Assembly: GCF_000003815.2 (NCBI RefSeq)
Contig: NC_049993.1
Coordinates: 2,611,627 to 2,675,626, forward strand
Direction of reading: 5' to 3'
Source: Branchiostoma floridae
Taxonomy: Eukaryota; Chordata; Leptocardii; Amphioxiformes; Branchiostomatidae
Length of the DNA stretch: 64,000 bases
Shown here: piece after piece, positions 3,196 through 55,816 of the stretch
Position numbering within the stretch: position 1 is the first letter of the stretch
Layout: every line of letters starts with the position of its first letter
Notes under the pieces: generated by a model
The model's input: only the letters and a program-made list of their open reading frames with translations
Told to the model about the DNA's origin: nothing
The model's database searches: none
Made by a program: the position numbers and the translations under genes

Positions 3196-4290
3196 GACGT
3201 AGGGATATCAGACCGTCAACAAAAGTCGCACGGCGGCTAACGGCGCAGCGAAGATACTAGCGCTATAAATAAGCGCTTCAACTAAGGATGGTAACCCGTA
3301 AAATATTTTTGTATACTGTTGAGCTAATAAGTAAAGCTTGTTGTTTATGAGGTTTTAGTTGTCTTTGAAGCTTTGACCCGAAATATTTTAAAGTCAAACT
3401 GCTGAAGAGAAGTAAGTGACTGCTACGATTATCGTAGATATGGCCCTAAAAAAACTGATAAAAGAAGCCTTCTCAATAGTCTAAAATGCAAGAGCTTCCG
3501 GGGGGGTTTCGCCCACCTGGGTCCCCCCCCCCCCACAGTGGCCCTGCCCCTGGACCCCGCCAGGAACATTCGGCGGCCCCCGGACCCCTGTCCGACGCTT
3601 TGAAAAAATCTTGGCGAGAAGTCTGTACGGCCTGAGTCTTCAAGTTAACGTATTGTGTGGTCCCGCTTATGAATATTAATTAGCCTTCGCTTTCCTCTTC
3701 GCTGATTGGCTGAACCATTAATTGAATTATCTCTTCCTGCACGCTAGACGCAGGTGCAGATGTCGGCTCTGTGGGGTGAACGTCCGAAAGGTCATGGCAT
3801 GGAGAACGAAAGAAAACCAATTTCCCCTAAAAAAGTGCTGTAATTAAGCCTTTTACAGTACTTTATGCCAAAAATTTTACTTGGATCATTTTACCAACTA
3901 TCTTATGCCTATCTATACCAAATGTTACTCATACCAGGGTACAGGGGTGCAAAATATACCGTTATAAGACCGTCAACAACAGTCGCACGGAGCTAACAGA
4001 GCAGCGAAAATACCATCGCTAGCGTTTCAACTTCGGATAACAAGTTATAAGTACTGTTGAACTCAGTAACGTTAAAGTTTGTTTTTAGTTGCCTTTGACG
4101 GTTTGACCTGAAATAGTGTTACGCTAAACTCCTGAAGAGAAGATAAGTGACTGCTGCAATTATCATAGATATGCCCCTAAGAACTGATACAATATAAAGC
4201 CTTCTGAATAGTCTAAAATGCGAGAGCCTTAGGCGGGCTTCGCTCCCCCTGGCGGGAACACTGCTATATACGGGATCATCAGGCCCCGCT
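3196..4290. repeat. Direct duplication of a roughly 0.4-kb block (3196-3655 and 3961-4290)
   Basis: The segment starting AGACCGTCAACAAAAGTCGC near 3207 recurs near 3965, about 760 bases on, followed in both copies by matching text (CTGAAGAGAAG...TAAGTGACTGCT, AGCCTTCT.AATAGTCTAAAATGC) and a GC-rich tail with C-runs. Both copies run into a TATGAATATTAATTAGCCTT segment followed by GCTGATTGGCT. The block therefore belongs to a repeated element rather than to unique sequence. Confidence 0.7.
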
Positions 4291-5265
4291 TATGAATATT
4301 AATTAGCCTTTGGCCTCCTCTTCGCTGATTGGCTAGGTCTTTGATTCAATTAACTCTCCGGCTGACGCGCACAGGTGTGGCTCTGTGCGGGGTCACGGAA
4401 GGTCACGCCAGGAGGCCAAAAGAAAACAAATTTCCCCTCAGAAAAGTGCCAAAATTAATCATTTTAAAGTTGTTTATGTCAAAAATTTTACTTGAATCTT
4501 GTTACCAAGTATCTAATGCCTATCTATACCAAATTTCAGGTCATTTAATTGTAATACCAGGGTACAGGAGCCAAAAGTGTCCTTTTTTGGTCAAAAATTG
4601 GCCAAAAATCGCAAAAATAAGCATTTTGTTGCACTGTACACCAAAAGTGTTATTGAATTTATATGAAGGAATTATCAAGGCACATCTGTGTCAAATTTCA
4701 GCTCATTCGGTTGCAATACCAAGGTACAGGAGCCAAAAGTGTCATTTTTTGGTCAAAAATTGGTCAAAAAATCGCAAAAATAAGCATTTTGTTGTACTGT
4801 ACACCAAAAGTGTTATCGAATTTATATGGGGGCATTATCAAGGCACATCTGTGTCAAATTTCAGCTCATTTGGTTGTAATACCAGGGTACAGGGGCCAAA
4901 AGTGTCCTTTTTTGGTCAACAATTGGTCAAAAAATCGCAAAAATAAGCATTTTGTTGTACTGTACACCAAAAGTGTTATCGAATTTATATGGGGGCATTA
5001 TCAAGGCACATCTCTGTCAAATTTCAGCTCATTTGGTTGTAATACCAGGGTACAGGGGCCAAAATATACAGTTTTGGTCTAAAATTGACCAAAAAATCTC
5101 AATAAAATCATTTTAGAGGCAGATATGAAAAAACTGAGAAAAAAGCATCAAGGTATTGGCCCATTCTACCCCTGTGCCAAATTTCAGGTCATTCAGTCCA
5201 GGAACGGCGGAGATGAATCACTTTGAAGATTTGACAGGAGAAGAAGAAGAAGAAGAAACATGACG
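3665..5265. mobile_element. Dispersed element with TATGAATATTAATTAG start (several copies)
   Basis: Copies or fragments start near 3666, 4289 and 59520 with GAATATTAATTAG, and share an interior with CCAAATTTCAGGTCATT. The 4289 and 59520 copies share a tail, ..ACAGGAGAAGAAG.. or ..ACAGGAGAAAGAAAG... A related piece (GCTGATTGGCTACCGAGACA, then CAATTCAATTAGC) lies near 58475. No transposase is visible, so the copies are non-autonomous. The class is not assigned. Confidence 0.55.
4370..5230. repeat. Tandem repeat, period about 162 bp, five units
   Basis: AAATTTCAG starts at about 4531, 4693, 4856, 5019 and 5178, giving periods of 162, 163, 163 and 159 bases. Each unit carries ATACCAGGGTACAGG, TTTTTTGGTCAAAAATTGG and a CAAAAGTGTTAT segment. 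The long open frame across this region simply reads the repeat and is not a gene. A (GAA)n run closes the array near 5236. Confidence 0.85.
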
Positions 5266-36249: not shown

Positions 36250-36668
36250 GAACTTTGACCTGTTACTGGTCTGTAAGATAATACTATTTTCTGTCTTAGT
36301 GCTGTTTAATCATCTTGGTTGTTTACAAAATGTTACCCACATATGTAAGATGTTGACTTCATTTTTAGTTCTTGATGGCAATCAAAAACGAACTTTGACC
36401 TGTTACTGGTCTGTAAGATAATACTGTTTTCTGTCTAGTGCTGTTTAATCATCTTGGTTGTTTACAAAATGTTACCCACATATGTAAGATGTTGACTTCA
36501 TTTTTAGTTCTTGATGGCAATCAAAAACGAACTTTGACCTGTTACTGGTCTGTAAGATAATACTGTTTTCTGTCTAGTGCTGTTTAATCATCTTGGCTGT
36601 TTACAAAATGTCACCCACATATGTAAGATGTTGACTTCATTTTTAGTTCTTGATGGCAATCAAAAACG
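36250..36668. repeat. Tandem triplication, 139-140 bp unit
   Basis: GAACTTTGACCTGTTACTGG starts at 36250, 36390 and 36529. Each unit ends TTCTTGATGGCAATCAAAAAC. The copies are nearly identical, so expansion is recent. They lie just behind the last exon of the unrecognised gene. Confidence 0.92.
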
Positions 36669-42404: not shown

Positions 42405-45400
42405 AGGCATGGGCTAATGGTAGTCATTTGGACTCCATCTTAGATGGCTTGGGGAAGTTTCTTGTAGAAGGAATAGCAGAGAAAAGAAAGCTGTTAGAAG
42501 TAGAGGCCATAAAAAGTCTCGGAGACGTAAACCTTAAGAGAGGAAGAGACTTGAAGGAGCCCAGACACTTGACCAAGGCGACAGCCCTGTACAGCACAGC
42601 CCTGGAGCGATGTGACGATCTACATGGGAAAACCGTCCTCACACATCGCTTACTGCACGCAGCAAAGGTCAGGAGAGACATACAAGGGAAAAGGAGACAG
42701 GTAGGTATTTGCTTCCTACATTACTACTTCTGTCAGTAGTCATACAGACGAGGACTCTGCTTCCTATATAGAATAACGTATTGCATTGTTGTATCGTTCT
42801 CAGCATATTCTGCTATTGTAATTAAAACACAAAAGTTAGCATTGCTCTGAACAAAGTTCTAACCAGCGTATCTCTTAGCAGAAGTACGTATCTTTGCTCG
42901 GTCTGCATTGTTTCCTTTGTTGATGTCACCTATGTACGAAGCTCGTGTTTGTAGTAACCGATGACATTTGGACTTGTCATGTGTTTGCTCACCTGTGTCT
43001 GCCGTTCCCCTGTACGTGACGTATTGAAGCAATGTCGGTGTTCATTGTACGGCCTCACGTGCCGACAGAGGTGTTGCTGTTCTGCTGTTCGTGTGCTTCA
43101 TTAACGGTGTTAATGTCAATTACCTTTGCTAAAAAGGTTCTGTTGTCGATAGCGTCTGTGTGTGTGTCTGTGTGTGTGTGCATGCGCGCGCGTGCGCGTG
43201 TGTGTGTGTGCGTGCGCGCGCGTGTGTCTGTGCATGTGTGTTTCTGTGTGTGTGCGTATGTGTATGTGTGCGTTTCTATGTGTGTTTGTGTATGTGTGAG
43301 TGTGTGTGCGTGCATGTGTATGTGTGTGTGTGTGTGTATTTGTGTGCGTGTGTGTCTGTGTGTGTGTGTGTATGTGTCTGCGTGTCTATGTATGTGTGTG
43401 TATGTGTGTAGAATGCAGTATTGATACTTGGTATGTGACTAGGTATTGATAAGACTTTGAAAGGTATTGTTAGTTGCCATTATCTATAGGCATTTACGTT
43501 GCCTCCATTGCTACGTTTCTGAAGGGCAAAAAGACAAACAAGCGGCTGTCAACTGGACCTAGCAAGGTCATTCCATCTATTCCTAAAGGTCATGACCTCT
43601 CTACGGCAGATAGGTCAAGGTGAGTGACGTCAGTTCAATAGTAATCATGTCTTTTGTAACACTAATCAATCAATTTTTGCCTGTGACCATTTTAATCAAC
43701 TTCACAATATGGCTGAGGGTCTGTTTGATATGTGACCCATTACAACATTTTAGGACTTTCATCTCAAATACACCAGGCAGAGTGTTTTGAAAATAGATAA
43801 AAAAGTTGACAAAAGAGAGCGACAGAGATTTCTACTAAACAGTGCCAAACTTTAGGACCATTTTTAACATCAGTTGCACTTTTTTATAGTAGCAAAAACG
43901 TATCGCCAATATGAAACTGTGAACTAACAAACATATAGTTTCCTCAATTGGGCTCATTGATAACTTGGCATCAGTCGTAACTAAGCGTCAACTTTTACTT
44001 CTCTTCACGTATTTTGTAAACCCTCCGTAGTGCAAAGAAGTACAAGGAACACCTACAGAAAGGTGACAAGGCGGTACAGAATGGAGACCTGGACTCAGCA
44101 GAGCAGCACTTTGCAACAGCGCTCAGGTTCGTACATATCAGAGGTATTTAACAAGTTTTAATATATAAACAAGCTTTGCAATTTAACACTGTACTTACAC
44201 TGCAAAACCTCACTAAAACGTACAAAATTTGCACATTTTGCAAGCTATTTATCTATTTGTTTTATTTATTAACTTATTAATTATGGTTTTATTTTGCCAT
44301 TAAGTGTAAACAGATAAAACTGGCAACGAAACCCGTGAATCCCAATACCACTCAAAGATTAGACAATTGTGCAACACTTGTGTCTTACAGACCCTACTGT
44401 TCAACAGTATGAACAAGAAGTGTCACCCCTGCGCAAGTTGGGCGATGTCTACCGCAGGCGAGGCTGTCAAACAGGAGACGGGGGAGACTTTGTCAAGGCG
44501 GCGGCGCTGTACCAGGCAGCAGCAGCCAGGTCGAAGGGCTCCAATAAGTCTCTTAAAGAAACCATAGAAGAGACAGAAGTGCTGTTTCTTAAACATGTCT
44601 TGAAGATAGATTATAACAGGAATGAAAATTATACAGTAAAACACAGAAACCAGCTGAAAGAAATTCGCGAGCTAATCAAACTAGAAATGGATACCATAGA
44701 CAAAGAGCTGAACCCCTACATACATGATGAGAAAAGTCAGTTAGCAAGGGAGATAGAAGCCAAGCGAGCTGACGCTGTCAGACGGTTGTTTGAGAAGATT
44801 GCAGGAGATAGAAAGGTGTTCATTGGACAGCTAGTAGATGAGTGTATCGCAGTGATGGGTCCCCCTCCCTATAAGTATGCCCTGATAGGTTTGGGTTCAC
44901 AAGCCACAGGGCTGGTAACTCCGTACTCAGACCTGGAGTTCGCCATCTTGATAGAGGAAGAAAATGAAGCAAATGTCGCGTATTTCCGACGACTGACTCA
45001 CTACCTGCACCTCAAGGTGGTCAACCTGGGAGAAACCATCCTCCCAGCCATGGGGATAACAAGTCTGAATGACTTCTACTCAGACGATCCACTGGACAAC
45101 TGGTACTATGACTCTGTTACACCCCGTGGGTTTGCCTTTGATGGCTCCATGCCAAAAGCTAGCAAGACTCCACTGGGCAGACAGGGAACTTCAACTGAAC
45201 CAGCCAGTGAGCTCATCCGCACCCCAAGAAACATGGCGGGAACCTTATTAAAGGATTTTTCCTTGTATCTCAAAGAAGGGTATCACCTCTGCAATGTACT
45301 GAGAAACGGTTGCCTGTTGGCGGGAGAACAGAGTTTAGTTGATGACTATGACGTCATTGTGACTGAGACTCTAAAGGCTCGGGGTGGAGAGATGGCCCGT

Positions 45401-46852
45401 CAGATGGCCAACGAGACGATCCGGGAGAATTTTGAGACAATATGTGAGCCAGAACGACACATACTTAGTGATGCGCTGTTGGATGTGAAGAAAGGAATCT
45501 ACCGGTTCCCAGTAATCGCAGTGGACTGTCTGGCACTCTGCTTCAATATCATTCCCACGTCGGTGTGGAAAACTATAGAAGAGATGCAGACTAAAGGCAT
45601 GGTCAGTGCAGAAAACGCGCATCACCTGAGGATGCTGGTCAGCATCTCAGCAGAACTCCGACTCAGAACCTACATTGCAAATGGCGGCCAGAAGGAAAGC
45701 CTGTCAGCCCTGCCATCTACGCCTACATCCTGGGACAACAGCAGTGGCAAACCAATTAACGACTTGCAGAAGGTGTTTTACATTTCCGACATGAATCTGC
45801 TCTTCAGGTATATCTTCACAGCACTTCCTTTGAAGCGTTTTTTGTCAGACGAACGCTCGGGCCGAAACTCGCTGCCTCGATCCTTGGATCGGCATGAAAA
45901 TTTATATGAACAATCTGCAGAAAAGAAAAGTTTAATCTACCGTTATTTTGGGTATCACAAAAAAGCCGTCAGGTGTCATGAAAAAGCTTTGGAAATAGGC
46001 AAATGTAATGGTAGTTTTGAAACCGCGTTGTCACTGAGCAACCTTGGAACAACCTTGGTATACAATGGAGATCACAGAAAAGCCTTCTCCCACTTGGAAC
46101 GAGCGGTGAAGATATTCCAAGATAGCTGTGTAGTTTTGTACGATGCCGGACACCCTAACATTGCTTGGACTCTGATCGCACAAGGAATGGCCTTGTATGA
46201 GATGGCGGACTTTAGAAAGGCACTCAGCTGCTTAGACACAGGAATGGACATGTACAGGAAATTGTATGGCCAAGAAAGTGCACACCGTGATGTTGCATTC
46301 ACTCTACACTTCCAGGGTTTAACATTTGTAGAACTTGGAGACCACCAGAAAGCACTCAGCTGTTTTAAACAGGCATGTGAGATGTACAGGAGGTTCTATG
46401 GAGGAAAGGACCATCCTGAAATCGCCAGTTCACTTACCGATGTTGGATCAGGCTGGCGAATGGTGGGTGATCGTAAGAAAGCTATCAGTATCCTTGAACA
46501 AGCACTGCAGATGAGCCAGAGGTTGCTTGGACCGAGAGCAGCACATCCTCATATAGCTCAGTCACTAGCCGAGCTAGGAATGAGCTGGTTTGAAATGGGG
46601 AATCCCCAGAAAGCTATCAGTTACGCAGAAGGAGCCTTGCAAATGTTTAGAAAAATCTACGGCGAAACTGCAGAACATCCTAAAATTGCGCGTTCACTCA
46701 TCAACCTTGGAGCGCCGTGGATACCGCTCGATCGAAAACGGGCACTCCTGTACTTCCAGCAGGGGCTGGAGATGACGAAGAGTCTGTATGGAGACGCGCA
46801 TCCCAAGACTAAAAACGCCAAGTGCTTTGTGCGATTCTTGGAGATTAGGTGA
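42405..46852 (+). CDS. GlnD-like nucleotidyltransferase fused to TPR repeats (3' exons)
   Basis: Exons 42405-42700, 43525-43619, 44031-44143 and 44391-46852 have GT/AG borders and phases 0, 2 and 1 that fit. Protein order: TPR-like helices (..[18 protein letters not shown].., [11 protein letters not shown]), then a nucleotidyltransferase core, then C-terminal TPRs. In the last exon (numbering from 44369) GS at 176-177 and DLE at 188-190 form the G-S...[DE]h[DE] active-site motif in a GlnD/DUF294-like setting ([10 protein letters not shown]). Residues 520-810 hold about six TPR units of kinesin-light-chain type, with KALSCFKQ.., [12 protein letters not shown] and HP.IA.SL.. patterns. The family normally transfers nucleotides to a protein or small molecule; the substrate is unknown. 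The third acidic residue could not be placed. No in-frame ATG precedes codon 107, so expression depends on the damaged 5' exon or an unseen one. Confidence 0.8.
43152..43410. repeat. (TG)n microsatellite in intron
   Basis: Long TG/CG-rich dinucleotide tract between the exons ending 42700 and starting 43525. Cys/Val-rich frames read from it are artefacts. Confidence 0.97.
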
Positions 46853-48778: not shown

Positions 48779-48936
48779 ATGAGTTCTACCAAAGTCGCTC
48801 TCGTCACCGGGGGTACCCGCGGGATCGGCTTCGGGATCGCCGCTGAGCTGGCCCGAGCAGGGCACGACCTCATCCTGGGGTACCGGGAGAACCATCAGCG
48901 GGCCGAGGCCGCTAAGGCAGAGCTTGAAGAGACCCA
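48779..48936 (+). CDS. Short-chain dehydrogenase/reductase, N-terminal part (split gene)
   Basis: The ATG at 48779 is followed by VALVTGGTRGIGFGIAAEL, the Rossmann-fold cofactor motif TGxxxGIG of short-chain dehydrogenases (residues 10-17). GYRENHQRAEAAKAELEET, the second beta strand and helix, comes next. Coding stops abruptly inside a codon where the 6.2-kb element begins. The remainder lies at 55174-55816. The GC-rich coding sequence contrasts with the AT-rich element. The complete reading frame would be 266 residues, a normal family length, without introns. Oxidation/reduction with NAD(P)(H) is family knowledge; the substrate is unknown. Confidence 0.85.
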
Positions 48937-48976
48937 AGTAGTATAGTAGCGACAGAATGAGTCCCATTTTTCAGGT

Positions 48977-49190
48977 GGAGCAAGGTGGAGCAGGTCAGAG
49001 GTCAAATATGATTTATTCAAGCGCGGGTCATAGGTCAGGGGTCAGATATGTATTCAGGCGCAGGTCGGGGGTCACATATCATTTATTCAGGTATAGCAGG
49101 TCAGAGGTTAGATATAATGTATTCAGGTGGAGCAGGTCAGAGGTCAGATATAATGTATTCAGGCGCAGGTCAGAGGTCAGATTTTATGTG
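48977..49190. repeat. AGGTCA direct-repeat array, left arm
   Basis: About 30-bp units carry AGGTCAGAGGTCA or near variants, i.e. AGGTCA repeats spaced by one base (DR1), alternating with ATAT..TTATTCAGG. About six units. A (C)n run follows at 49202-49217. Confidence 0.85.
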
Positions 49191-49347
49191 CCCTTTTGAT
49201 ACCCCCCCCCCCCCCCCGCCACAAATGAACCTCCCCCTCCCCATTTGTGAAAGACATGCCCTTATTTGGCCTGGTTCTAAGTCTCTATCGTATAAGATAA
49301 AGATGACAATGACCGTTTGATTTTTTCCGTTCTTTTATTCTGTACTT

Positions 49348-49671
49348 TCAAAAGTCAGCATCCAGCGTGAACTTTTGCTGTTCAGAGGAGGACATAACCC
49401 CCATCTTCTGGTACTCTCCCACCTTTTTCTCAAAGAAGTTGGTCTTTCCCTCCAGAGAAATGTTCTCCATGAAGTCAAAGGGGTTCTCGCTGTTGTAAAG
49501 CTTACTGCACATGAGTTCGCCCAGCAGCCTATCTGCGACAAACTCGATGTACTGTTTCATCAGGTCTTGATTCATCCCAATCAGCTTCACAGGAAGAGCT
49601 TCCGTCAGGAACTCTTGCTCAGTCTTAACAGCATCGTCGATAATCTGGTGAATGCGCTCCTCACTAGGCTT
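49348..49671 (-). CDS. Ribonucleotide reductase small subunit (R2) C-terminal fragment, left arm
   Basis: Reads 107 residues from KPSEER to the stop, with the highly conserved R2 segments [37 protein letters not shown] and the C-terminus FTLDADF. The fragment lacks the upstream helices with the metal-binding Asp/Glu/His residues and the tyrosyl radical, so it cannot be a working R2. The tail that docks on the large subunit R1 is complete. An in-frame stop (TAG) lies 16 bases before KPSEER. Confidence 0.9.
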
Positions 49672-49705
49672 ATTGGTTACTTTATTCTAGAGTAGCTATA
49701 TGTGT

Positions 49706-50945
49706 TGCTCAGGAGTAAAAGAAACTGCTCCGGAGTAAAATAAAACTGCTCCGGAGTATGCTCCGGAGTAAGTGAGTAAGTATATTTGTTGTAAGTATGT
49801 ATATTTGTCATGTACGTACGAACATATACCATCTATATGTACATGCAGTGAAACATTGCTTTGGAGTAACAATACGTGTTGCTCCGGAGTAAAAAAAAAC
49901 TGCTCCGGAGTAAAAGAAAACTGCTCCGGAGTAAAATAAACTGCTCCGGAGTAAAAGAAAACTACTCCGGAGTAAGTGAGTAAGTATATTTGTTGTAAGT
50001 ATGTATATTTGTCATGTACGTACGAACATATACCATCTACATGTACATGCAGTGAAACATTGCTTTGGAGTAACTATACGTGTTGCTCCGGAGTAAAAAC
50101 ACTGCTCCGGAGTAAAAGAAAACTGCTCCGGAGTAAAATAAACTGCTCCGGAGTAAAATAAAACTGCTCCGGAGTAAGTGAGTAAGTATATTTGTTGTAA
50201 GTATGTATATTTGTCATGTACGTACGAACATATACCATCTATATGTACATGCAGTGAAACATTGCTTTGGAGTAACTATACGTGTTGCTCCGGAGTAAAA
50301 ACACTGCTCCGGAGTAAAAGAAAACTGCTCCGGAGTAAAATAAACTGCTCCGGAGTAAAATAAAACTACTCCGGAGTATGCTCCGGAGTAAGTATATTTG
50401 TTGTATGTATGTTTGTCATGTACGTACGAACATATACCATCTATATGTACATGCAGTGAGACATTGCTTTGGAGTAACTATACGTGTTGCTCCGGAGTAA
50501 AACACTGCTCCGGAGTAAAAGAAAACTGCTCCGGAGTAAAATAAACTGCTCCGGAGTAAAATAAAACTACTTCGGAGTATGCTCCGGAGTAAGTGAGTAA
50601 GTATATTTGTTGTATGTATATTTGTCATGTACGTACGAACATATACCATCTATATGTACATGCAGTGAAACATTGCTCCGGAGTAAAAACACTGCTCCGG
50701 AGTAAAAGAAAACTGCTCCGGAGTAAAAGAAAATTACTCCGGAGTATGCTCCGGAGTAAGTGAGTAAGTATATTCGTTGTAAGTATGTATATTTGTCTAA
50801 GTATATTTGTTGTAAGTATGTATATTTGTCATCTACGTGCGAACATATACCATCTATATGTACATGCAGTGAAACATTGCTTTGGAGTAGGTATACGTTT
50901 TGCTCCGGAGTAAAAAAAAACTGCTCCGGAGTAAGTGAGTACGTA
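49706..50945. repeat. CTCCGGAG palindrome array, left arm
   Basis: The 8-bp palindrome CTCCGGAG, in the setting TGCTCCGGAGTAAAA, occurs dozens of times spaced about 17-20 bases. It is organised in about six higher-order units of about 200 bp, each with GTATATTTGTTGTAAGTATG, CATGTACGTACGAACATA and ACATGCAGTGAAACATTGCT. Confidence 0.92.
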
Positions 50946-51198
50946 TATTCGTGTTAAGTAACGCATACGTATTTGCCATGTACGTGCCTGTTATGTACTA
51001 GGCATATATCAACACAGCAATACAAAAGACAGGAGTGTACGGTGATCCTGTTTCTTAAGACTTTACTAGCACTTGACGTCTATAAAAAATGTATCAAGGA
51101 ATTCATAACCGATGTACATCTCGTCCGATCCTCTATGTCAAACATGGTATGACATTAGGAAATAAAAGCTGTACTGCATGCGATATGGCGACCTCACA

Positions 51199-51828
51199 TT
51201 ACTTCAGGACGAGGTAACCATATTTTTTCATCAATGTCTGTTCTGAGACCCAGTTCTTGCTGTGTACAATCTCATTACTGTAACGAGGCAACGCAGCGAA
51301 CTCTATTAGATAAAACTTTTTGCCAGCGCGCTTCGTCTGTTTGATGACACTTTGAGGAACATCGCCTGGCTGGTGAGGTAGTGCGATGGTCAAGTCTCGA
51401 TAGAGTGTCCACTCCTCCTCGTCACCGCTGTGGTAGCCGCTGTCGTAGCCAGTGCGTTCACTTTCATCAGATGAAACCGTCCCTGAGGACACATCTGTCC
51501 CTGTATCACTCTCGGAACCACTTTGGTCGCTGTCGGTTTCTTCTGTGGAGTCTCCCGGCTCGGAACCCATCACAGATTCGGCGTCTGAGACGCTTTCTTC
51601 ATCTTGTGACACCATCGAATCTTCGGAACCAACCGTGTCCGTATCGTGTTCAGACGACACGTCGGAGTCGTCGAAAACATCGCGCTCCCGGTAAGAGCCC
51701 GTCTCGGCATCAACGACGACTTCTCCCGAGGCACCACCTGACTCGTCTCGGTGTTTTCTTTCCAGATGACGCTCGAGGTTGAACGCACGATCAAATTCCC
51801 GATCACAAATGTCGCAGACGTGAGGCAT
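51199..51828 (-). CDS. Single C2H2 zinc-finger protein with acidic middle, element-encoded
   Basis: From ATG at 51828 the protein begins MPHVCDICDREFDRAFNLER and completes a C-x2-C-x12-H-x4-H finger within 30 residues. About 110 residues rich in Asp, Glu and Ser follow, then a basic C-terminal part (KQTKRAGKKFYLIEFAALP..KKYGYLVLK). An upstream in-frame start at 51942 would add 38 residues. 209 residues from the inner start. A DNA-binding or regulatory role is plausible from the finger and acidic region. The promoter end lies in the unpaired centre of the palindrome, whereas the 3' two-thirds lie in the arm. Confidence 0.7.
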   Translation of the reverse strand: MPHVCDICDREFDRAFNLERHLERKHRDESGGASGEVVVDAETGSYRERDVFDDSDVSSEHDTDTVGSEDSMVSQDEESVSDAESVMGSEPGDSTEETDSDQSGSESDTGTDVSSGTVSSDESERTGYDSGYHSGDEEEWTLYRDLTIALPHQPGDVPQSVIKQTKRAGKKFYLIEFAALPRYSNEIVHSKNWVSEQTLMKKYGYLVLK

Positions 51829-52084
51829 ACTTTTTGTTCGGCGGACAGAAGGGAAATGATAAGGTATTGATGTGCACACATATATTTGTGGCGCATGAAA
51901 GTTTTTAAGGGATCGGTCGTTTATCTTGTATGCATCATGCATCTACGTATGCCGTTACTGCATACGTGGTATTGAAATATTGTTAAGGATAATGAATATG
52001 ACAGTGTAAATCCGTACATTGCGCTTCGCTTAGACACTAACGGATGCCCGATAGCTTGCTCACGTCACCAAAGAAGGGAACCCT

Positions 52085-52212
52085 ATGGATTTTGAAAAAT
52101 TTCGTGCGGTTCTTACAACTAGGCGGTCGCGGATAGTTATGCATAACATGAACACCACAAATATTGAGAATGTGTACTATGCAGTTCGCTTTGAAAATAA
52201 AACATGGCCGAT
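52085..52212 (+). CDS. Start of an unrecognised element gene, cut by the gap
   Basis: ATG at 52085 opens a frame of 42 codons (MDFEKFRAVLTTRRSR.., ..NIENVYYAVRFENKTW) that runs into the N gap. It is divergent from the zinc-finger gene, with about 250 bases between the starts, as for a shared central promoter. No family recognised. Confidence 0.4.
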
Positions 52213-52333
52213 NNNNNNNNNNNNNNNNNNNNNNNNNNNNNNNNNNNNNNNNNNNNNNNNNNNNNNNNNNNNNNNNNNNNNNNNNNNNNNNNNNNNNNNN
52301 NNNNNNNNNNNNNNNNNNNNNNNNNNNNNNNNN
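52213..52333. other. Assembly gap, 121 N, at the palindrome centre
   Basis: Unlike the three 100-N gaps this one has an odd length, so it was probably sized from read pairs. If a large internal region was collapsed, the size is wrong. Confidence 0.9.
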
Positions 52334-52356
52334 GGCAATCATGCCCTATCTTTACA

Positions 52357-52819
52357 CATGTCGTCTGAACACGATACGGACACGGTTGGTTCCGAAGATT
52401 CGATGGTGTCACAAGATGAAGAAAGCGTCTCAGACGCCGAATCTGTGATGGGTTCCGAGCCGGGAGACTCCACAGAAGAAACCGACAGCGACCAAAGTGG
52501 TTCCGAGAGTGATACAGGGACAGATGTGTCCTCAGGGACGGTTTCATCTGATGAAAGTGAACGCACTGGCTACGACAGCGGCTACCACAGCGGTGACGAG
52601 GAGGAGTGGACACTCTATCGAGACTTGACCATCGCACTACCTCACCAGCCAGGCGATGTTCCTCAAAGTGTCATCAAACAGACGAAGCGCGCTGGCAAAA
52701 AGTTTTATCTAATAGAGTTCGCTGCGTTGCCTCGTTACAGTAATGAGATTGTACACAGCAAGAACTGGGTCTCAGAACAGACATTGATGAAAAAATATGG
52801 TTACCTCGTCCTGAAGTAA
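52357..52819 (+). pseudogene. Second copy of the zinc-finger gene 3' part, without the finger
   Basis: Mirror copy of the acidic and C-terminal parts, starting at SSEHDTDTVGSEDS. The N-terminal finger is missing on this side because the arm homology ends there. The frame is intact to the stop at 52817-52819. Whether it is expressed from sequence within the gap is unknown. Confidence 0.7.
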
Positions 52820-53084
52820 TGTGAGGTCGCCATATCGCATGCAGTACAGCTTTTATTTCCTAATGTCATACCATGTTTGACATAGAGGATCGGACGAGAT
52901 GTACATCGGTTATGAATTCCTTGATACATTTTTTATAGACGTCAAGTGCTAGTAAAGTCTTAAGAAACAGGATCACCGTACACTCCTGTCTTTTGTATTG
53001 CTGTGTTGATATATGCCTAGTACATAACAGGCACGTACATGGCAAATACGTATGCGTTACTTAACACGAATATACGTACTCACT

Positions 53085-54320
53085 TACTCCGGAGCAGTTT
53101 TTTTTTACTCCGGAGCAAAACGTATACCTACTCCAAAGCAATGTTTCACTGCATGTACATATAGATGGTATATGTTCGCACGAAGATGACAAATATACAT
53201 ACTTACAACAAATATACTTAGACAAATATACATACTTACAACGAATATACTTACTCACTTACTCCGGAGCATACTCCGGAGTAATTTTCTTTTACTCCGG
53301 AGCAGTTTTCTTTTACTCCGGAGCAGTGTTTTTACTCCGGAGCAATGTTTCACTGCATGTACATATAGATGGTATATGTTCGTACGTACATGACAAATAT
53401 ACATACAACAAATATACTTACTCACTTACTCCGGAGCATACTCCGGAGTAGTTTTATTTTACTCCGGAGCAGTTTATTTTACTCCGGAGCAGTTTTCTTT
53501 TACTCCGGAGCAGTGTTTTACTCCGGAGCAACACGTATAGTTACTCCAAAGCAATGTCTCACTGCATGTACATATAGATGGTATATGTTCGTACGTACAT
53601 GACAAACATACATACAACAAATATACTTACTCCGGAGCATACTCCGGAGTAGTTTTATTTTACTCCGGAGCAGTTTATTTTACTCCGGAGCAGTTTTCTT
53701 TTACTCCGGAGCAGTGTTTTTACTCCGGAGCAACACGTATAGTTACTCCAAAGCAATGTTTCACTGCATGTACATGTAGATGGTATATGTTCGTACGTAC
53801 ATGACAAATATACATACTTACAACAAATATACTTACTCACTTACTCCGGAGTAGTTTTCTTTTACTCCGGAGCAGTTTATTTTACTCCGGAGCAGTTTTC
53901 TTTTACTCCGGAGCAGTGTTTTTACTCCGGAGCAACACGTATAGTTACTCCAAAGCAATGTTTCACTGCATGTACATGTAGATGGTATATGTTCGTACGT
54001 ACATGACAAATATACATACTTACAACAAATATACTTACTCACTTACTCCGGAGTAGTTTTCTTTTACTCCGGAGCAGTTTATTTTACTCCGGAGCAGTTT
54101 TCTTTTACTCCGGAGCAGTTTTTTTTTACTCCGGAGCAACACGTATTGTTACTCCAAAGCAATGTTTCACTGCATGTACATATAGATGGTATATGTTCGT
54201 ACGTACATGACAAATATACATACTTACAACAAATATACTTACTCACTTACTCCGGAGCATACTCCGGAGCAGTTTTATTTTACTCCGGAGCAGTTTCTTT
54301 TACTCCTGAGCAACACATAT
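53085..54320. repeat. CTCCGGAG palindrome array, right arm (inverted)
   Basis: Reverse-complement copy of the left array, also six higher-order units. Small differences (for example ACATGTAGATGG in two units instead of one) show that the arms are not a simple assembly mirror. Confidence 0.92.
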
Positions 54321-54346
54321 AGCTACTCTAGAATAAAGTAACCAAT

Positions 54347-54670
54347 AAGCCTAGTGAGGAGCGCATTCACCAGATTATCGACGATGCTGTTAAGACTGAG
54401 CAAGAGTTCCTGACGGAAGCTCTTCCTGTGAAGCTGATTGGGATGAATCAAGACCTGATGAAACAGTACATCGAGTTTGTCGCAGATAGGCTGCTGGGCG
54501 AACTCATGTGCAGTAAGCTTTACAACAGCGAGAACCCCTTTGACTTCATGGAGAACATTTCTCTGGAGGGAAAGACCAACTTCTTTGAGAAAAAGGTGGG
54601 AGAGTACCAGAAGATGGGGGTTATGTCCTCCTCTGAACAGCAAAAGTTCACGCTGGATGCTGACTTTTGA
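54347..54670 (+). CDS. Ribonucleotide reductase small subunit (R2) C-terminal fragment, right arm
   Basis: Identical in translation to the left-arm fragment, in opposite orientation. AATAAA follows at 54679-54684, nine bases after the stop. No intron is present. The animal-type sequence suggests capture from a host gene rather than a viral R2, but this is inference. No ATG opens the segment; the first in-frame Met follows about 30 residues in (IGMN). Confidence 0.9.
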
Positions 54671-54827
54671 AAGTACAGAATAAAAGAACGGAAAAAATCA
54701 AACGGTCATTGTCATCTTTATCTTATACGATAGAGACTTAGAACCAGGCCAATAAGGGCATGTCTTTCACAATGGGGAGGGGGAGGTTCCTTTGGGGTGG
54801 GGTGGGGTTGTCGTACTTACCGAGGCT

Positions 54828-55125
54828 CCGCCTGAATATATGATATCGGACCCCTGACCTGCGCCGCCTGAATAAATCATATTTGACCTCTGACCTGCTA
54901 TACCTGAATAAATGATATATATGACCCCTGACCTGCTGCGCCTGAATAAATTATATCTGACCTCTGACCTGCTCCACCTGAATACATTATATCTAACCTC
55001 TGACCTGCTATACCTGAATAAATGATATGTGACCCCCGACCTGCGCCTGAATACATATCTGACCCCTGACCTATGACCCGCGCTTGAATAAATCATATTT
55101 GACCTCTGACCTGCTCCACCTTGCT
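54828..55125. repeat. AGGTCA direct-repeat array, right arm (inverted, longer)
   Basis: Reverse complement of the left array (TGACCTCTGACCTG units) with about nine units, so it is roughly three units longer. This is the main length difference between the arms. Confidence 0.85.
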
Positions 55126-55173
55126 CCCCCTGAAAAATGGGACTCATTCTGTCGCTACTATACTACTGACCCA

Positions 55174-55816
55174 CAAGGTGCGTGTGTTCCTTATAGCAGG
55201 CGGGACAGAGGAAGAGGCTACGGCCGACGCCTTCTTCGCGTGCGTCCATACGAACTTTGGCGGCAGGCTCACCGCGCTGGTCCACAACGCCGACGGGCAC
55301 TACCGCAGCGGACCCCCGCCCTGCAAGCCGGACGCGACCGGTAGCTGGTTCGCGGGCTGGGACGCCTACGAGTACTACCACAACATCTACGCCAAGTGTT
55401 TCCTCCGTTTGGTAGAGCAGGCCGTGAGTCGGATGGAGGACGACCGGGGGTACATCGTGGCCGTGGCAGGGCTCGGGTGTAACAGTAACACCAGCCCCAG
55501 CCTGCCGTACTTCACCCCGGGTACGGCCAAGGCCAGTATGGAGTACATGGTGAGGCACTACGCCAAGCAGCTGGCGCCCAGACGCATCACCTGTAACACC
55601 GTCATACCGGGGATGGTCGACACGGAGGCTTGGGCACCGGTGAGGGCGAGGATCGGGAAGGAGGGGGTAGCGGACATGGTGGGCAGGCTCTGCGGGATGG
55701 GGCGCTGGGGCACCCCGAGGGACGTCGGCGGCGTGGTCGCCTTCCTCTGCTCGGAGCGAGCGGGCTTCGTCACGGGCGCGGCTATTCCCGTGGACGGGGG
55801 GTTCCATCTCAAGTAG
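55174..55816 (+). CDS. Short-chain dehydrogenase/reductase, C-terminal part (split gene)
   Basis: Continues the frame of 48779-48936 once the element and one GACCCA are removed (junction codon CAC, His53). Visible motifs: ALVHNAD at the NNAG position (residues 88-93), and PYFTPGTAKASMEY with Tyr165 and Lys172 spaced Y-x6-K. Further on are APRRITCNTVIPGMVDTEAW and the C-terminal GAAIPVDGGF typical of the family. The Y-x6-K spacing is that of enoyl-ACP reductases (FabI type) and divergent SDRs rather than the classical Y-x3-K. The gene is intact apart from the insertion, so the event is recent or polymorphic. Confidence 0.85.

Follow-up and report, generated by a model that had tools for sequence, protein, structure and literature searches.

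The question raised by this locus is what kind of mobile DNA has split a short-chain dehydrogenase gene of the lancelet Branchiostoma floridae, and how its mirror-image structure came about. The window under study, by which we mean the whole stretch of 64,000 nucleotides (G000:C15:2611627-2675626 of the 513-Mb B. floridae assembly), contains a 6.2-kb palindromic element (48937-55167) that starts with AGTAGTATAG, stops with CTATACTACT and has a perfect GACCCA on either flank. The base-exact boundaries and the target duplication announced by the original prediction are both present in the sequence, and the dehydrogenase was, as it had claimed, intact before the insertion: excising in silico the element and one GACCCA yields an unbroken frame of 266 residues across Thr52-His53-Lys54, which matches Pfam adh_short_C2 with E 9.8e-38. 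The element is a non-autonomous Maverick derivative, having the ends and target site duplication of full elements and no core genes outside an assembly gap of 121 N. Taken together with the mechanism proposed below, we consider it probable that it represents a satellite with mirror-image arms, which depends on the longer members of a lancelet Maverick (Polinton) family.

Ends shared with long Mavericks

The terminal 264 bp of the element (48937-49200) matches at least 54 places in the genome, 40 of 126 candidates having been scored, and many of these places are arranged as facing pairs 2.3-18 kb apart, so that the search for further copies suggested by the original prediction did find them. 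In the elements with both ends read, the termini are invariably AGTAGT/ACTACT (19/19), and a perfect 6-bp target duplication is found in 16 of these 19, the imperfect cases being L054 (5/6), C7 (3/6) and L058 (2/6). Since the copies were found by means of the shared end, and partly located by the AGTAGT/ACTACT motif itself, only the 6-bp duplication constitutes an independent check. The proposed Polinton/Maverick marks of 5'-AG ends and a 6-bp duplication thus hold for the window element, which has AGTAGT...ACTACT ends and a duplicated GACCCA, and full Mavericks in the same genome share both.

Long elements with integrase, polymerase, ATPase and protease have the ends of the window element; the original prediction had suggested looking for full-length elements with polymerase/integrase. 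We have sampled four such asymmetric elements of 11-18 kb, read at their ends (C158, C12, C9 and C7), and refer to them as class A or presumed helpers. Their Pfam matches comprise an rve integrase bearing a chromodomain (1.9e-12 and 2.1e-11), Bcl-2 (1.1e-12), PC4 (2.3e-27) and the small subunit of ribonucleotide reductase, hereafter R2 (1.1e-115), the last being present as a full intronless gene (344-345 aa) in three of the four elements. The middle piece of C158 matches DNA_pol_B_2 weakly (E 4.4e-5, 23.0 bits, not reaching the cut-off of 25.8), a Pox_A32-type ATPase (E 1.6e-5) and an adenovirus-type protease (E 9e-4, below cut-off); capsid genes in class A were not confirmed by Pfam. R2 and Bcl-2 occupy opposite ends in C9 and C7, C158 showed only R2 and C12 only Bcl-2, and in C158 and C12 the two ends differ past a terminal repeat of 261-269 bp. 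The helper integrase is found in 12 stop-free copies with 97-100% amino-acid identity, the match covering the full 417 residues in 11 of them and residues 1-404 in the twelfth.

As for R2, the genome contains 15 full-length copies, and for ten of these a helper integrase match lies no more than 25 kb away, in one case to a fragment only. The class A R2 falls in a lancelet clade (100/99) together with two B. belcheri R2 proteins and was therefore taken from a lancelet-type R2. The two B. floridae small-chain proteins retrieved by the protein search, P0031 and P0032, both annotated as ribonucleoside-diphosphate reductase small chain-like, are of the Maverick-borne type, and P0032 is identical to the R2 copy in L066. 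The helper C7 is a composite: close to its R2 end it encloses another element start and another Bcl-2 gene (L066:3805 and 4107-4619). Elsewhere, at G000:C9:4204953-4211935, two inverted full-length R2 genes with identical tails lie about 6 kb apart (L105 and L107); no helper integrase is found near this pair, which is possibly a palindrome with a complete R2 on each arm.

Palindromic copies and the origin of their arms

A distinct scenario results from the analysis of the short copies. The 18 loci that we have tabulated feature by feature as class B (L074-L077 having been chosen for their zinc-finger gene pairs facing away from each other) follow a common plan, in which the end is followed by a helper-end piece, an array of CTCCGGAG sites, a zinc-finger gene and a centre, and then by the mirror image of the same order. 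All readable centres are homologous to one another, and in the ungapped L075 the centre has a 64-nt loop between 14-nt stems. The arms are homotypic: wherever both of them contain an accessory piece, as is the case in 12 loci, the piece is the same on either side, and mixed arms are absent (0/12). Seven loci are R2/R2 (window, L051, L052, L055, L074, L075, L077), four are Bcl-2/Bcl-2 (L050, L053, L056 and L058, the right copy of L053 being truncated) and one, L054, has a Bcl-2+R2 composite on both sides. Five of these 12 are free of gaps (L052, L053, L056, L075, L077), the gaps amounting to 100-121 N in the window, L054 and L074 and to 1.3-3.4 kb N in L050, L051, L055 and L058. As for departures from the plan, neither arm has an accessory piece in L057, L073 and L076, the finger matches of L057 being located at or beyond the element ends; only one arm is visible in L068 and L069, the latter without an array; L059 is Bcl-2/Bcl-2 with no array and a 5.9-kb gap; and no zinc-finger gene is seen in L052 and L056. 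Bcl-2 aside, 12 helper proteins gave no match within the readable window element or within 18 of the 19 other short loci, the exception being PC4 in L059.

In the window element the arms extend over 48937-51662 and 52356-55167 and agree in an ungapped core of 2,397 nt with 6 mismatches and in the terminal 228 nt with 2 mismatches, an indel-rich tandem stretch separating the two. The mirror arms of the original prediction are thus real, but the palindrome is imperfect at its centre, where the right zinc-finger copy begins only at codon 57, probably as a result of one-sided damage to a formerly symmetric palindrome. This centre is only partly known because it includes the gap of 121 N (52213-52333), and its readable part at 52001-52212 has no match among the other loci compared. 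The 'R2' of the original prediction denotes the ribonucleotide reductase small subunit and not the R2 retrotransposon: the piece of 75 aa matches the family PF00268 just under the cut-off and is 97% identical to a B. floridae ribonucleotide reductase small chain.

The simplest account of such an element would be an internal deletion, as in miniature inverted-repeat transposable elements, in which a Maverick has lost its core and kept both original ends. This explains the ends and target duplication common to full Mavericks and the lack of core genes in the readable parts; however, it predicts one R2 arm and one Bcl-2 arm, because the helper ends differ beyond the 261-269-bp repeat, and none of the 12 loci is of this kind. 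In fact, the sequence that the two window arms share with C158 beyond the terminal repeat amounts to 439 and 525 nt at the R2 end of this helper and to 0 and 43 nt at its other end. The same helper-end piece on both arms therefore argues against an internal deletion, which we have rejected on these grounds. Such a deletion also leaves the zinc-finger gene and the arrays unexplained: nine helper pieces gave no match to the zinc-finger gene of class B and have 0-1 CTCCGGAG sites, as compared with 10-66 sites per class B copy (only 4 in L051). Altogether this account is very improbable. There is also very little chance that the element is an artefact of the assembly, its gap concealing a full Maverick core or its arms having been duplicated by the assembler. 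The window element does have a central gap, as many copies have gaps, but the plan recurs, with none of the 12 helper proteins matched, in the gap-free L052, L053, L056, L075 and L077, the window arms differ from each other at a few positions, and the flanks give an exact target duplication and an intact frame.

In L053 and L054 the matches extend to both types of helper end, which is what their composite or nested arms predict. Each arm of L053 (L053:313-4420) encloses a further element start (AGTAGTATG...), a pattern that would result from the copying of a nested end to either arm.

The identity between arms was compared within and between copies. The outer arms of one element are 98.2% identical in the window, 99.9% in L055 and 100% in both L074 and L075, but 96.4% in L051 and 94.5% in L052, where they are not each other's best match, the values between copies and helpers being 89.3-98.1%; in four of the six elements compared, no other copy matches an arm better than the opposite arm does. 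Likewise, the zinc-finger pairs are 98.4-100% identical inside five elements, as compared with a mean of 95.5 between elements (range 92.5-99.7), and the Bcl-2 pairs within an element reach 99.6% in L050 and L056 and 90.7% in L058, with 90.3-99.6% between class B copies. That arms are so alike in four of six elements, even though junctions and centres are common to the copies, suggests that the arms are copied from one another. Judging from the sequences, palindromy looks inherited within class B and arm identity inside most copies looks younger than the family, since the centre is homologous between copies and the arms and gene pairs are mostly more alike within them.

The R2 pieces suggest in addition that ends are exchanged with helpers. 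The array flank joins R2 at one position in the window, L052, L054, L055 and L071, with near-identical flanks, and L074 and L075 have another junction in common. In a tree of R2 tails (35 rows, labelled as full-length or truncated, five of the 15 full-length copies having no integrase nearby), the truncated tails are scattered among the full-length ones with 9 label changes, and a single origin of truncated tails is recovered in 0% of 200 bootstrap trees. The approximately unbiased test gives p 4.8e-8 for the truncated tails as one clade and p 8.6e-4 for the 711-junction tails, a set named after the junctions seen and including L111-L115, which were read only from the junction onward. In this tree the two R2 tails from a given element coincide or are sisters, except for those of L051, which fall in an unresolved group with others. 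R2 pieces behind one junction are thus polyphyletic among helper R2 genes, from which it seems that the ends have been exchanged with helpers. The ratio of nonsynonymous to synonymous changes in R2 is equal in class B (n=5) and helpers (n=3), at about 0.41 and 0.03-0.05 according to sub-region, as expected if the pieces were recently drawn from working R2 genes. We have considered selection on a 75-aa mini-R2 starting at an internal Met, which accounts for the data less well than sampling of the functional R2 pool, since in the fragment upstream of this Met the ratio is the same in classes A and B (0.41-0.42). We have rejected the capture of a host exon by the window element, as the helpers carry full intronless R2 genes; of the reduced, host-gene-carrying derivative proposed originally, the reduced Maverick derivative stands, while the gene fragment is the 3' part of a helper-borne gene.

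Inverted arrangements are also observed outside this family. At G000:C6:25538691-25549451 two integrase genes in inverted orientation lie about 10 kb apart, with 67% identity to the helper integrase and one TGA each, and form a palindrome-like structure in a different Maverick family; at G000:C9:963584-971109, inverted PolB fragments about 7 kb apart may represent a further palindromic Maverick derivative.

These pairs, together with the Bcl-2/Bcl-2 arms of L059 that lack arrays, would be in line with each palindrome being an independent snap-back by-product of helper replication, with no continuing satellite lineage. What speaks against this is that the zinc-finger gene, the array, the centre and the position of the R2 junction are common to class B copies, and that B. 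belcheri has zinc-finger homologues, which renders it improbable. A further alternative concerns the arms only: chromosomal palindromes undergo gene conversion, and conversion after insertion, instead of hairpin copying before it, would also yield arms of equal identity. The less similar arms of L051, L052 and L053 indicate that conversion in place is not general, and copying during replication accounts better for the homotypic replacement of entire end types (R2, Bcl-2, composite); we regard ordinary gene conversion as an unlikely source of the arm identity, albeit one to be taken seriously.

The zinc-finger gene, its array and the locus

The class B zinc-finger gene has 103 matches in the genome; 65 of these places were compared with the helper integrases, and none has one closer than 12 kb. 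Near-identical proteins of this gene assign the window to B. floridae, homologues occur in B. belcheri, and the named protein hits are all from lancelets. Many of the B. belcheri homologues (P0010, P0012 and others) are annotated as 'Crystallin, lambda 1', apparently a wrong transferred name. The ratio of nonsynonymous to synonymous substitution rates (dN/dS) is 0.32 over 28 intact copies, meant as one per element, these being averages over all pairs that are not independent; the corresponding Bcl-2 values are 0.51 (class B, n=6) and 0.45 (class A, n=4). The single C2H2 finger matches PF00096 with E 8.9e-5 and 23.2 bits, not reaching the cut-off of 25.2, and the C-x2-C-x12-H-x4-H pattern is present. 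In the family alignment A1 (24 rows, with 7 of the 30 zinc-finger proteins omitted and 4 rows having no readable finger), helix positions -1, 3 and 6 are R, N and R in all 20 readable rows, while neighbouring positions vary. Among genomic copies these residues are kept in 29 of 31, one of the others having G at position -1 and one being unmatched, with a changed zinc-binding Cys.

According to the C2H2 code, a finger with R-1, N3 and R6 would read GAG, and the array core CTCCGGAG consists of two inverted GAG halves. The array pattern has 707 matches in the genome (reversed control, 0), and nine of the 11 array clusters listed have a zinc-finger gene at a distance of no more than 1 kb, one corresponds to L050 with its 2.9-kb gap and one has no such gene. 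From residue 141 on, the C-terminal domain is modelled with a predicted local distance difference test (pLDDT) score of about 80-94, and it bears a weak likeness to chromodomains. On the basis of these sequence features, the zinc-finger protein is predicted to bind the CTCCGGAG arrays.

Table 1. Coordinates in the window of the element, its parts and the interrupted dehydrogenase gene.
Feature	Position	Strand	Basis or comparison
5' part of the host short-chain dehydrogenase gene, from codon 1 to the second base of codon 53	48779..48936	+	Empty-site frame, Pfam adh_short_C2
Target site duplication GACCCA, left	48931..48936	.	Sequence
Palindromic class B element	48937..55167	.	Both ends and arms compared
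Terminal part of left arm, starting AGTAGTATAG; family-wide terminal repeat	48937..49164	+	2 mismatches to other arm
3' part of R2 from helper end, left arm; begins at about R2 nt 711	49348..49674	-	Sequence comparison
Tandem array of 31 CTCCGGAG sites, left arm; higher-order period about 202 bp	49728..50931	.	
Zinc-finger gene, intact (209 aa), with a single C2H2 finger, an acidic middle part and a weakly chromodomain-like C-terminus	51199..51828	-	
Centre segment common to other class B copies	51829..51984	.	99.4% to L073 over 156 nt
Centre segment including the 121-N gap (52213-52333)	51985..52355	.	
Zinc-finger gene of the right arm, reduced to codons 57-209	52356..52819	+	
Tandem array of 32 CTCCGGAG sites, right arm	53087..54290	.	
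3' part of R2, right arm	54344..54670	+	
Terminal part of right arm, stopping CTATACTACT	54940..55167	-	2 mismatches to other arm
Target site duplication GACCCA, right	55168..55173	.	Sequence
Host dehydrogenase gene, 3' part	55174..55816	+	Empty-site frame, Pfam adh_short_C2

Two further features of the window are an open frame of 829 aa at 44363-46852, with TPR repeats and a weak match to the DUF294 nucleotidyltransferase, and a tandem array of three 139-bp units at 36250-36668, which match at 98%.

Proposed mechanism and comparison with known systems

The mechanism that we propose for the palindromic satellite is as follows. Its insertion would be carried out in trans by the helper integrase and its copying, also in trans, by the protein-primed polymerase of the helper. 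Because the satellite strand is self-complementary, it could snap back into a hairpin, and copying of this hairpin would make one arm from the other. In cells where satellite and helper replicate together, recombination may occasionally swap a satellite end for a helper end, which would then be copied to the opposite arm. With less confidence, we suggest that the zinc-finger protein is kept by selection for binding the CTCCGGAG arrays; the weakest part of the proposal is its role, which might lie in the control of replication, transcription or chromatin. Some observations weigh against this scheme, namely the less similar arms of L051, L052 and L053, as regards hairpin copying, and the fact that 78 of the 124 variable zinc-finger codons are amino-acid-changing, a weaker sign of constraint. 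We put forward only tentatively, and with more doubt than confidence, the extended interpretation in which class B is a satellite lineage that is copied through hairpins, has its own DNA-binding protein and binding array, renews the identity of its arms in each cycle, repeatedly takes over the ends of any helper that replicates alongside it and persists across lancelet species as a virophage-like hyperparasite of an endogenous virus. If ends are traceably exchanged, satellites would be a genomic record of joint replication with their helpers, and a lasting likeness of the mirror arms would betray hairpin copying; both bear on whether animal Mavericks act as replicating viruses, and a lancelet zinc-finger family would be tied to a specific array.

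Among known systems, protein-primed linear DNA viruses such as adenovirus give rise to palindromic snap-back defective genomes. Class B resembles these in that both ends come from one parental end, the core is lost and replication in trans is presumed, but it differs in that its palindromes are integrated in the host genome, form a lineage there and carry their own gene and arrays. Foldback-type transposons, including Galileo, also have long, internally repetitive inverted arms around a short middle; however, Galileo is placed in the P-element group, whereas class B arms derive from Maverick ends. Maverick/Polinton elements of animals were reportedly described by Kapitonov and Jurka in 2006 and by Pritham in 2007, and non-autonomous Polintons as such are already known; our literature search found no description of a persistent homotypic palindromic Maverick class with its own gene and array. 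The window element shares with Mavericks the terminal inverted repeats, the 5'-(AGT)2//(ACT)2-3' ends and the 6-bp target duplications, the last two as given for vertebrate Mavericks (PMC8097293), and its same-end relatives carry an integrase with a chromodomain, a polymerase, an ATPase and a protease. It differs from them in having no match to a helper core gene, in its own zinc-finger gene and CTCCGGAG arrays, and in being a mirror palindrome with arms of 2.7-2.8 kb, as compared with the terminal repeats of 46-1,447 bp published for intact vertebrate Mavericks. With virophages and endogenous mavirus-like elements (EMALEs), one type of which also carries an R2 gene, it shares the presumed parasitism on a virus-like element and the integrase-type insertion (PMC8547959); it differs in that the lancelet satellite has no capsid, polymerase or integrase match, and its helper is itself a Maverick.

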